Assembly (NCBI RefSeq): GCF_000003815.2
Contig: NC_049996.1
Span: forward strand, 18,297,074-18,361,073
Origin: Branchiostoma floridae
Taxonomy: Eukaryota; Chordata; Leptocardii; Amphioxiformes; Branchiostomatidae
Direction: 5' to 3'
Length of the DNA stretch: 64,000 nucleotides
Shown: in pieces, positions 3,230 through 64,000 of the stretch
Position numbering within the stretch: the first letter of the stretch is position 1
Layout of the letters: the number at the start of each line of letters is the position of its first letter
Translations under genes and position numbers: made by a program
The notes under the pieces: generated by a model
Databases searched by the model: none
The model's input: the letters and a program-made list of their open reading frames with translations, nothing else
What the model was told of the DNA's origin: nothing

Positions 3230-3382
3230 ATCAAAGTAATTCAGATATAATTTATAGCAAAAGTGATACATATTGAATTACAACGCTTATATTGTCATGT
3301 CAAGTCAAAGTCCTTCCCGCTCCATGGTGCATAGGGCGGCGCCCATGTTCTTGCAGTAACCCTGGGCCAAACAACTGCAATT
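3230..3382. repeat. 153-bp perfect direct repeat, copy 1 (next to gap)
   Basis: Identical base for base to 3931-4083. This copy ends five bases before an N gap. Perfect identity beside a gap suggests misassembly or haplotype duplication rather than an old repeat. Confidence 0.85.
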
Positions 3383-3387
3383 GAAAA

Positions 3388-3605
3388 NNNNNNNNNNNNN
3401 NNNNNNNNNNNNNNNNNNNNNNNNNNNNNNNNNNNNNNNNNNNNNNNNNNNNNNNNNNNNNNNNNNNNNNNNNNNNNNNNNNNNNNNNNNNNNNNNNNNN
3501 NNNNNNNNNNNNNNNNNNNNNNNNNNNNNNNNNNNNNNNNNNNNNNNNNNNNNNNNNNNNNNNNNNNNNNNNNNNNNNNNNNNNNNNNNNNNNNNNNNNN
3601 NNNNN
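3388..3605. other. Assembly gap (N run)
   Basis: 218 Ns. The following 3606-3930 is unremarkable non-coding sequence. Confidence 1.
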
Positions 3606-3930: not shown

Positions 3931-4083
3931 ATCAAAGTAATTCAGATATAATTTATAGCAAAAGTGATACATATTGAATTACAACGCTTATATTGTCATG
4001 TCAAGTCAAAGTCCTTCCCGCTCCATGGTGCATAGGGCGGCGCCCATGTTCTTGCAGTAACCCTGGGCCAAACAACTGCAATT
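3931..4083. repeat. 153-bp perfect direct repeat, copy 2
   Basis: Perfect match to 3230-3382. Its second half is the 3' body of a SINE-like repeat that continues to about 4280. Confidence 0.85.
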
Positions 4084-16870: not shown

Positions 16871-16889
16871 CATGTAATGTGTGAATTTG

Positions 16890-17100
16890 GCCCCTTTCTT
16901 CAGATCGGATTCGTGATCGAAAATATAGACCAATTCAAGACTTTGATGTTTAGCCGCTCTCTTTTCATGTAATTTTGCTATAACATCCAGGCTTTCCAAA
17001 ATTTCGCACCGGCCAGCTTTTTTTTCAAAAGCTTCTTGTTTCCTCAGATCAGGTTTGTGATGCTGGGTGACGAAGACAAGGGCGGACAGTTGTATATTGA
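16890..17100 (+). repeat. Two degraded copies of the 5' edge of acetyltransferase exon 2
   Basis: The real exon 2 starts ...cttcag|ATCGGGTTCGCGATG at 17197. Related acceptor-plus-exon starts lie at 16904 (about 14 bp of exon) and 17048 (about 40 bp: IRFVMLGDEDKGG against IGFAMLGDVDKGG). The three starts are 144-149 bp apart, as expected for a decayed tandem array crossing the intron/exon border. Confidence 0.75.
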
Positions 17101-17196: not shown

Positions 17197-17412
17197 ATCG
17201 GGTTCGCGATGCTGGGAGACGTAGACAAGGGCGGGCGAGGCGGACTCATCTGTGACATGCGCGTCGACAAAGCCTGGCGAGAGGCCGGCGTGTACGAGAT
17301 GATGTATGACTACGTCATCGATTACGCCAAGAACGAGACAGGCATGAAGTACATCCGCACGACTGTCAACAAGTTTCCGGAGGGGACCAACGTCAAGGAG
17401 ATTGCCACACTG
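17197..17412 (+). CDS. GNAT-family N-acetyltransferase, coding exon 2
   Basis: 72 codons, phase 0 at both ends (donor CTG|gtgagt). It holds the central GNAT strand IGFAMLGDVDKGG, then LICDMRVDKAWREAGVYEMM, where the R/Q-x-x-G-x-A/G acetyl-CoA pyrophosphate loop is represented by RxxGV, and the following helix. The usual second Gly is replaced (REAGVY), which may weaken cofactor binding. Confidence 0.8.
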
Positions 17413-19349: not shown

Positions 19350-19769
19350 AATTCTGGAGAAAATTATGAGGTCTAATGTCTTATATGGGTCTTCTCACGG
19401 CTTTCCTTGGCACTGCAGCGAAACTTCCAGTTTGTATTTAGTTTTGGTTGGGTAATTAATAAGTCCAAGCAATTGCAACTGTGTAATATGCCATTTAATC
19501 AATTACCTTTGATAACATTCTTTTTTTGATACTCTGTTTAATTGGTCTTTGACACATATCTCCAAGCACAGATTTTTAAAGTCGTTTTATGTCTTTCTTG
19601 TGTTAAGAATTTTACAGATATTTGCTACCATGAATACATTTGGAAGTCTTCCAACATGATTGGCCATGTACCTTTTTTTTTCAATTTTACACTCAAGCTT
19701 TATACGCATGTATCTGCATTTTTGTTATCTGTTTGAATACATTTAATGAAACCCTGAAAAAGTCTTCTT

Positions 19770-20768
19770 ACATTTGAGTAAATACAAAGTTATTCTCAAT
19801 TCTTAACACATCTTTCTTTATCAACAAACGTTACAAAGTCATAGGATTTTTCTCTCTCATTGAATTAGACATTTTCACTTATTTTGTGCTATTTCAAGGA
19901 TTTATCCCTCTAATCATGTTAACCGTTAAAGTTACTATTAACTCCAATTTGGGCTCTGTTGTCGTTCAAGTTTCCATCTGGGGGTTTCATCTGTATGAAC
20001 AAAGTTTTTCTCAAATCTTTACAAACCCTTCTTGATCAACAAACTTAACGTAGTCATAGGATTTTTCTCTCTCATTGAATTAGACATTTTCACCCGTTTT
20101 ATAGTAGTTCAAGCATTATGCATGCTAGCTTTAGTATTAACTCCGTTTGGGGCTCTGTTGTCCTTCAAGTTTCCATTTCAGGGTTCATCTGTTTAAATAA
20201 ATGAGACCCTCAAAAAGTTTTCATCAATTTTAGTAAATACAAAGTTCTTCTCAAATCTTTACAAATCTTTCTTCAACAGACAGCCCTCTCATTGAAATTT
20301 TCACCCATTTTGTGCTATTTTAGGGATCTACCCATCTAATCAGGTTAACCATTTGCTATAGTATTAACTCCATTTCAGGCTCTGTCCTTCAAGTTTCCAT
20401 CTGAGGGTTTCATCTGTATGAACAAAGTTATTCTCAAATCTTAACACATTTTCTTTATCAACAAACCTTACATAGTCATAGGATTTTTTCTCTCATTGAA
20501 TTAGACATTTTCACTTATTTCGTGCTATTTCAAGGATTTATCCCTCTAATCATGTTAACCATTAAAGTTACTATTAACTCCAATTTGGGCTCTGTTGTCG
20601 TTCAAGTTTCCATCTGGGGGTTTCATCTGTATGAACAAAGTTATTCTCAAATCTTTACAAATCTATCTTCAAACGAAACAAAGTCATAGGATTTTTCTCT
20701 CATTGAATTGGACATTTTCACCCATTTTACGATATTTCAAGGATTTATCCCTATAATCCTTTATGTAA
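19770..20768 (-). repeat. Tandem array carrying the tail of the last POLE exon
   Basis: Units of about 200-225 bp. Each contains a 33-35 bp block equivalent to the last coding bases and stop of POLE (plus-strand word TTCAAGTTTCCATCTG), at about 19965, 20164, 20388 and 20601. The other part of the unit (CTCTCATTGAATTAGACATT and neighbours) is not found next to the real stop. The copy at 20388 matches the real exon end almost perfectly. Confidence 0.8.
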
Positions 20769-21200
20769 TATGCCCTCTCACAGAGATCAGAATGTATTTG
20801 CGGCAACAGGAATTCTAGGTAATATAAGGCAAAGGCCCTGTAAAGAAGACAAAACCTGTATGGACGTTATTATGCAAATTGAAATAATGGTCGAGACAAG
20901 GGCTGTTTTCTTTTACGGGGACTTTACCTTTGACATACTGTAAATGCATTTAAGTTCGCGGGGATTTAATTTCGCGGTAGTGGGAAAAATGACTTTTCGC
21001 GGTGGTTTTAATTTCGCGGTAACACCATCGACTGCAATCTAATACCTTTATAGAAAAATGTTCGCGGTGGATTTAAGTTCGCGGTGAGGTGGTCGCCGCG
21101 AAAACCGCGAACATTAATCCACCGCGAACATTTCTGCATTTACAGTATTAAGGTAGAATTCCTGTCACCACACATGCGTTTTCTCTGTGAAAGGGCTATA
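20769..21200. mobile_element. Palindromic MITE (outer element of a nested pair)
   Basis: Left arm TATGCCCTCTCACAGAGA and right arm TCTCTGTGAAAGGGCTATA form imperfect inverted termini. Both arms also share an AGGAATTCTA block. A second MITE (20936-21147) sits inside. The right end is 36 bp from the POLE stop codon, so the element probably forms part of the POLE 3' UTR. Confidence 0.7.
20936..21147. mobile_element. 'cgcggt' hairpin MITE, nested
   Basis: Near-perfect hairpin with termini TACTGTAAATGCATTTAAG and CATTTCTGCATTTACAGTA, rich in TTCGCGGT words. It is flanked by TA on both sides, consistent with a TA target duplication. This is the best-preserved copy in the window; others are at 19164, 21786 and 58475. 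Confidence 0.85.
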
Positions 21201-21236
21201 TATCATCGACAACTCCACTTCTCCATTGGCCATCCT

Positions 21237-63879
<42,643 letters not shown>

Positions 63880-63934
63880 CTACAGAAGTAGAGGCAATGA
63901 AAAAAGCATTAGCTGTAATTAACAACAAAGATAT

Positions 63935-64000
63935 GTAAGGCCTGATCCATTAAAAAAGCTTCGAAAATCATGACGGAGCCTTTTCTTAACACCTACAGAA
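63935..64000 (-). repeat. Extra copy of the 5' edge of the 63667-63879 exon, at the window edge
   Basis: The last about 60 bp of the window repeat the exon start and its acceptor (CTTTTCTTAACACCTACAG), preceded by a diverged AAAGCTTCG segment. It sits 113 bp upstream of the real acceptor; the array may continue beyond the window. Confidence 0.88.

Follow-up and report, generated by a model that had tools for sequence, protein, structure and literature searches.

Many intronic copies of POLE exon ends in amphioxus differ mostly by silent changes

Why would an essential single-copy gene carry copies of its own exon ends inside its introns, and are such copies merely tolerated decoys, as the original prediction for this locus held? 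The question is raised by the window, a stretch of 64,000 bases (C18:18297074-18361073 of a 513 Mb assembly). The draft protein read from it matches POLE of Branchiostoma floridae (P0001, 2299 aa, so named in NCBI/UniRef) at 100% identity. Residues 482-2299 lie on the minus strand in 36 exons, all pieces being exact matches, and each of the 35 junctions in the window has a single consistent splice solution, GT-AG except for intron 33 (GC-AG; the GC donor lies at 24579-24580, and its intronic copy is GC as well). Another 27.7 kb of the same assembly beyond the window adds 14 POLE exons, giving a total of 50, of which the window holds the last 36. The database protein corresponds exactly to the real exons, and the exon ends it uses are the real ones only.

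Border copies across POLE

When the whole window was compared with itself by BLAST (E<=1e-6, copies no more than 1500 bases apart), 23 duplication clusters emerged, 18 of which are local, direct and placed in the POLE part and its 3' flank. Across the 36 window exons of POLE we count 17 direct border copies or arrays (Table 1), with 44 intronic copies on the donor side, 15 on the acceptor side and at most 14 at any one border; the exon part of the copies spans 21 to 112 bases. Self-BLAST recovered the donor-side copies predicted at ten exons (7, 8, 12, 18, 21, 23, 24, 27, 31 and 33) and the acceptor-side copies predicted at seven (1, 9, 17, 24, 28, 30 and 35). Three further particulars stand in part: the copy of the exon 28 border is real but lies 1.3 kb away rather than in tandem; a copy of the stop end of exon 36 is present but consists of only a 39-base match within the 3'-flank array; and the inverted copy of exon 25 is real but is not a border copy, as it takes in the whole exon and about 29 bases on each side. 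In the copy at exon 21, the intron part resembles the original for the first donor bases only.

Table 1. Border copies and related duplications at the POLE locus (window positions)
Feature	Description	Positions	Strand
Exon 1 (of window), acceptor side	2 copies in all; array runs past window	63821..64000	-
Exon 7, donor side	copy, 172-base unit; second unit interrupted	58365..58916	-
Exon 8, donor side	array, 3 copies of 78 exon bases; differences all synonymous	57501..57924	-
Exon 9, acceptor side	array, 2 copies, N gap inside	56828..57417	-
Exon 12, donor side	two 181-base units about 650 bases off real border	52992..53896	-
Exon 17, acceptor side	array, 3 copies	47023..47744	-
Exon 18, donor side	array, 4 copies, unit about 159 bases	45506..46253	-
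Exon 21, donor side	copy; exon part 88.6% identical, 7 synonymous and 2 other changes	43887..44143	-
Exon 23, donor side	copy, intron part (CA)n	42142..42551	-
Exon 24, acceptor side	copy	41694..41956	-
Exon 24, donor side	array, 9 copies, several classes of intron part	38755..41635	-
Exon 25 and flanks	source of inverted copy	38314..38486	-
Inverted copy of whole exon 25	173 bases, 94.2% identical, in intron 28, 4.5 kb from source	33818..33990	+
Exon 27, donor side	array, 8 copies with (GTTT)n; 1-base gap in 3 copies	36219..37203	-
Exon 28, acceptor side	copy, 1.3 kb upstream of real border	34271..35637	-
Exon 30, acceptor side	array, 4 copies	32131..32728	-
Exon 31, donor side	array, 14 copies with (GTTT)n	29100..31106	-
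Exon 33, donor side	copy, unusual GC donor retained	24205..24628	-
Exon 35, acceptor side	array, 3 copies, AG absent in two	22165..22715	-
Exon 36, stop end, and 3'-flank array	one 39-base copy of stop end	19727..21270	-

In the upstream part of POLE (E<=1e-5) both clusters touch an exon, namely a six-copy acceptor array at exon 5 of the gene and the array at window exon 1; four clusters upstream of the start codon fall outside POLE, one of them in an open frame that looks coiled-coil-like by eye. An N gap at 56988-57102 lies inside the exon 9 array. We rejected an assembly artefact, because the arrays sit in a chromosome-scale contig and 14 copies are too many for two haplotypes, an argument that stops short of read-level exclusion. 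Other repeated or foreign sequence is present as well: the intron after exon 31 contains an 847-aa open frame (26097-28640) that by eye resembles a non-LTR endonuclease-reverse transcriptase, a stretch of about 270 bases within 33378-33899 has at least 39 further genomic places at 84-90% identity, and 153 bases at 3230-3382 and 3931-4083, near an N gap (3388-3605), are 100% identical, possibly through assembly duplication.

The POLE arrays are mirage minisatellites, in which the unit consists of an exon end, its splice site and a little intron. Mirages have been published for the amphioxus genes Adh3, TnC and PGBD5 and the globins Gb6/Gb9 (PMC3087553, PMC3902484), and the name and the amphioxus link had been correctly predicted for this locus. 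Those mirages are tandem copies of the exon-intron boundary and occur at 5' as well as 3' borders, as they do in POLE. In the published genes AG/GT is retained in many copies, regular splicing continues, and units evolve in concert within clusters, the cluster ends being excluded (PMC3087553, PMC3902484). Tandem units spanning the boundary are found throughout the POLE set, except at exon 28, where the copy is not in tandem, and at exon 25, which is copied whole and inverted, and the exact match to the B. floridae protein places them in Branchiostoma. What sets POLE apart is density: 17 border copies or arrays in 36 exons, as against one or two per gene in the accessible portions of those reports (PMC3087553, PMC3902484). 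A likeness also exists to the origin of new introns from tandemly duplicated AG/GT proto-splice sites (Rogers, cited in PMC3087553), where exon sequence and splice signals are likewise duplicated in tandem; in POLE, however, existing introns receive the copies, and of the 10 donor arrays only those of exons 12, 18 and 23 have AGGT within their exon part.

Association with exons in POLE and in other genes

Are the arrays tied to exons? We applied an array-wise test in place of a base-wise border test, placing units of the same length at random and discarding placements that held a whole exon or fell wholly inside one. All 18 POLE clusters touch an exon, as against 3.7 expected (P ~4e-13 if arrays are independent), and so do 16/16 when exons 28 and 36 are left out (P ~9e-12). 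A count by borders or bases gave no enrichment (14 of 71 borders spanned, taking 10 bases on each side, against a shifted mean of 19.5), because the arrays extend far into the introns; the predicted excess of exon edges over random placement is thus present by array and absent by border or base. With exons and their copies masked, 10 clusters were left in the gene and its 3' flank at E<=1e-6, and three further pairs appeared at weaker values (4e-6 to 5e-5). In eight of these clusters (at exons 7, 9, 12, 17, 18, 24, 30 and 33) the arms are 1-99 bases away from exon sequence, either real or copied; a ninth is found at 89-124 bases from exons 35/36, and the tenth, the 3'-flank array, at 479 bases. 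Since clusters left after masking still adjoin exons, the association is not explained solely by exon sequence staying recognisable for longer.

Strongly supported inside POLE, the tie is only weakly supported elsewhere. A myosin sample (21 merged regions, 79 kb, 62 of 142 matches) yielded two clusters, both at one gene and one of them 26 bases from a matched exon, and none of the 62 exon matches was touched; the suggestion of a genome-wide process at POLE-like density found no support there. The intronic minisatellite at L010 858-1475, which stands about 26 bases off a myosin exon match, is devoid of exon sequence. A kinesin sample of 25 regions (93 kb) covered 56 of the 134 exon matches, two of these being copies themselves, and gave 11 clusters, two of which touch a matched exon by at least 10 bases. 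Judged by eye, eight of the 11 have a period below 500 bases; four of these include an exon end, one probably does and three do not. Those with an exon end are L068, two in a gene at C6:18.69 Mb (one by about 13 bases) and one at an unmatched start exon at C6:24.42 Mb; the probable one, also by eye, is on C17. Three further kinesin stretches with 15 exon matches contributed one donor array, L073, at an exon unmatched by the family model. Altogether, 3 of 71 matched kinesin exons have border copies, plus two or three unmatched exons; of the 9 tandem clusters seen in the kinesin regions, 5 or perhaps 6 are tied to exons, partly as judged by eye. Exon touching is undercounted in both samples, because only exons of the modelled domains are known. 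Two other loci, L075 and L076, say nothing about frequency, because they were picked for one domain part matching twice or more. In the window itself, a neighbouring plus-strand gene (N-acetyltransferase-like by eye) has acceptor-side copies at 16886-16917 and 17039-17085, before an exon at 17197. Border arrays therefore occur in several genes, among which POLE, with 17 in 36 exons, is exceptional.

Codon pattern of the copies

Compared with the real exons, the exon parts of the 59 intronic copies carry 41, 31 and 251 differences at codon positions 1, 2 and 3, respectively. If the copies were inert, that is, random tandem duplications spanning an exon end, of which the exon is selected while the copies decay neutrally and exon-bearing arrays stay recognisable for longer, a constrained exon and its neutral copies should together show 50% synonymous variants on the donor side and 45% on the acceptor side. 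Counting each variant once among gapless units (8 of the 59 POLE copies have gaps and were dropped), we found 82 of 107 donor variants to be synonymous, well beyond that prediction (P 2e-8), and also beyond a null that keeps the base change and CpG status (36 +/- 4.6, with a maximum of 49 in 400 draws). The donor excess persists without the four largest arrays (24/30, P 0.001). In the acceptor arrays 23 of 52 variants are synonymous (null 15.1 +/- 2.9), which matches the expectation for inert copies. Splice signals follow suit: the donor dinucleotide is retained in all 42 copies that reach it, whereas AG has been lost from 3 of 15 acceptor copies (P ~0.016). Even so, frame-breaking gaps occur in 5 of the 44 donor copies.

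The donor variants are also structured by age. Those shared between units stand at 31:1 synonymous to other and singletons at 51:24; within donor arrays of at least three copies the comparison is 31:1 against 31:18 (Fisher P 3e-4). Older variants have passed a coding filter, and the youngest less so. For the six donor arrays at exons 8, 12, 18, 24, 27 and 31, copy-copy Ks is 0.31, Ka 0.017 and Ka/Ks about 0.06, with an intron-part divergence of about 0.23, all estimated from forced alignments and non-independent pairs. Because a copy accrues neutral changes once it has split off, a Ks near 0.3 with a Ka below 0.02 means that most of the divergence arose under coding selection.

Multicopy families undergo concerted evolution, which leaves mosaic units and shared variants. 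Four-gamete conflicts (16 of 36 site pairs at exon 24, 6/10 at exon 27, 9/10 at exon 31 and 1/1 at exon 18) indicate that the POLE units at these exons are such mosaics and evolve in concert, although recurrent mutation could contribute. Mosaic units and shared variants are thus common to both, but in POLE one member is a piece of an essential single-copy gene and the others are intronic. GC-biased conversion was rejected, as it leaves no mark: GC3 is 0.735 in array-bearing exon ends, not above the 0.758 of the remainder.

The pattern recurs outside POLE. In three exon-touching arrays with a long exon part, taken without the end units of L073 and L075, synonymous variants number 6/7 (L075), 5/5 (L073) and 7/8 (L068). 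The total of 18/20 compares with 5.4 under the null (0 of 200,000 draws as high) and with 42% expected for neutral copies (P 1e-5); the one nonsynonymous codon of L068 holds two changes, and counting both against gives 17/20 (P 1e-4). The end units themselves have decayed, with synonymous to other changes of 7:7 in L075 and 2:2 in L073, where a 7-base deletion is added; simple addition of the end units brings the count to 27/38. One L075 copy has a stop codon. Between the real exon part of L075 and its first copy, five differences, all synonymous, fall inside 34 bases, beyond which the next 48 exon and 45 intron bases are identical; this clustering looks like an exchange tract. The start-exon copy of the kinesin gene at C6:24.42 Mb differs at three of its 60 coding bases, in each case synonymously, and in the acceptor array at exon 5 of POLE all three variants are synonymous. 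Because this array and L068 are both acceptor arrays, the contrast between donors and acceptors in the window may reflect activity rather than side. Outside the codon test stand the C6:18.69 Mb gene, whose two arrays have a short exon part, the neighbouring gene of the window, the probable array on C17, and L076; at the last, SNF2-domain matches at 514-633 and 1240-1353 cover the same domain part, lie 726 bases apart and are 73.7% identical, as an alternative exon or an old copy might be.

Inertness is therefore largely refuted for the donor arrays, unless mutation prefers third positions beyond base and CpG identity, both of which the null allowed for. The acceptor counts, the acceptor copies that have lost AG (3/15) and the decay of the L073 and L075 end units speak for it; the donor arrays, the three arrays of other genes and the masked intron duplications, most of which still adjoin exons or copies, speak against it, and as an explanation of the arrays we consider it unlikely. 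A neutral snapshot of the real exon is rejected for the donor arrays and retained for the acceptor arrays of POLE and the end units of L073 and L075, and it is for these that the picture of tolerated decoys survives, whereas the codon pattern contradicts it for the donors. What is new is that many donor-side copies differ mostly silently, as inert decoys would not; mirages as such were already known. The pattern does not figure in the accessible portions of the published mirage descriptions (PMC3087553, PMC3902484), and we found no report of it in the open-access literature searched.

Exchange, use and the meaning of spare exon ends

How might intronic sequence come to bear the mark of protein selection? 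The donor pattern implies either that spare units descend recently from the working exon ends of other lineages, or that they are used. We envision, with about even confidence, that a real exon end and its intronic copies form one recombining pool. The working unit, which forms the exon end, and the spare units of its intron would repeatedly exchange sequence, via unequal exchange or short gene conversion, and also between homologous chromosomes. Any spare unit would then have descended recently from a working exon end, its older variants filtered by selection on the protein, and end units that drop out of exchange would decay. The conserved exon part might in addition hold the units recombination-competent, such that arrays at exon ends persist and intron-only arrays lose homology and vanish. 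Non-crossover tracts in amphioxus are mostly shorter than 200 bases (PMC12500494). Simple within-chromosome gene conversion was rejected by reasoning, since it should give similar Ka and Ks.

Exchange with ordinary mutation is nonetheless insufficient by itself. Copy-copy Ks lies about seven-fold above the synonymous diversity of 0.0397 reported for B. floridae (PMC12862219), an excess that is unexplained. In pool simulations, which were single runs of small populations, symmetrical exchange at a diversity of 0.04 left Ks between 0.02 and 0.11, short of the observed 0.3, and Ka/Ks was low only in runs where Ks was low as well. An approach to the data took raised local mutation: one run with theta at 0.35 gave a Ks of 0.23 and a Ka/Ks of 0.06. 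The observed synonymous divergence would thus require a pool that mutates faster or coalesces deeper than single-copy sequence. Acceptor arrays at neutral expectation (23/52), decayed end units and frame-breaking gaps (5/44) also count against the pool.

The other branch, direct use, holds that copies are expressed, for example through a somatic deletion that brings exon body and copy together, through unusual splicing or through template jumping, with selection acting on each copy in place. It would fit the low Ka/Ks at high Ks, the 42/42 intact donors and the somatic instability of the Adh3 mirage cited in PMC3087553. Yet only one of the 10 donor arrays, that of exon 18, has a GT in the real exon just where the duplicated part begins. 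AGGT falls within the exon part of three of 10, so that joining an exon body to a copy by splicing at AGGT, a route we rejected, is possible in those three only. The frame is broken in 5 of 44 donor copies, an L075 copy has a stop, and the database protein has real exon ends only; we regard direct use as distinctly unlikely. Exchange is favoured over use because of the frame-breaking gaps, the L075 stop, the less-filtered singletons, the decayed end units and the mosaics. Duplication set off by the splice junctions as such, by way of R-loops, lariats or fork stalling, is an idea that goes back to the original prediction; it is highly improbable, for although 18/18 clusters lie at exons, both donor and acceptor sides are affected with no pointer to one splicing intermediate, the exon part varies from 21 to 112 bases, 62 myosin exon matches are without arrays, and the synonymous pattern is left unaccounted for.

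Where sequence lying in an intron bears the mark of protein selection, position no longer tells function in the accustomed way. It is conceivable, though we would put it somewhat short of even, that amphioxus introns hold coding-competent, protein-selected exon ends that regularly become the working exon end, in the germ line or in the soma. If this reservoir exists, mirage genes would have exchangeable exon ends and raised synonymous diversity. The B. floridae pedigree with 104 offspring (PMC12862219) makes the rate of exchange directly measurable. If exchange is the cause, nearby copies edit essential single-copy exons at rates relevant to synonymous diversity, and codon-based selection tests, read mapping and gene annotation would be affected in amphioxus; the same may hold for other highly polymorphic animals.
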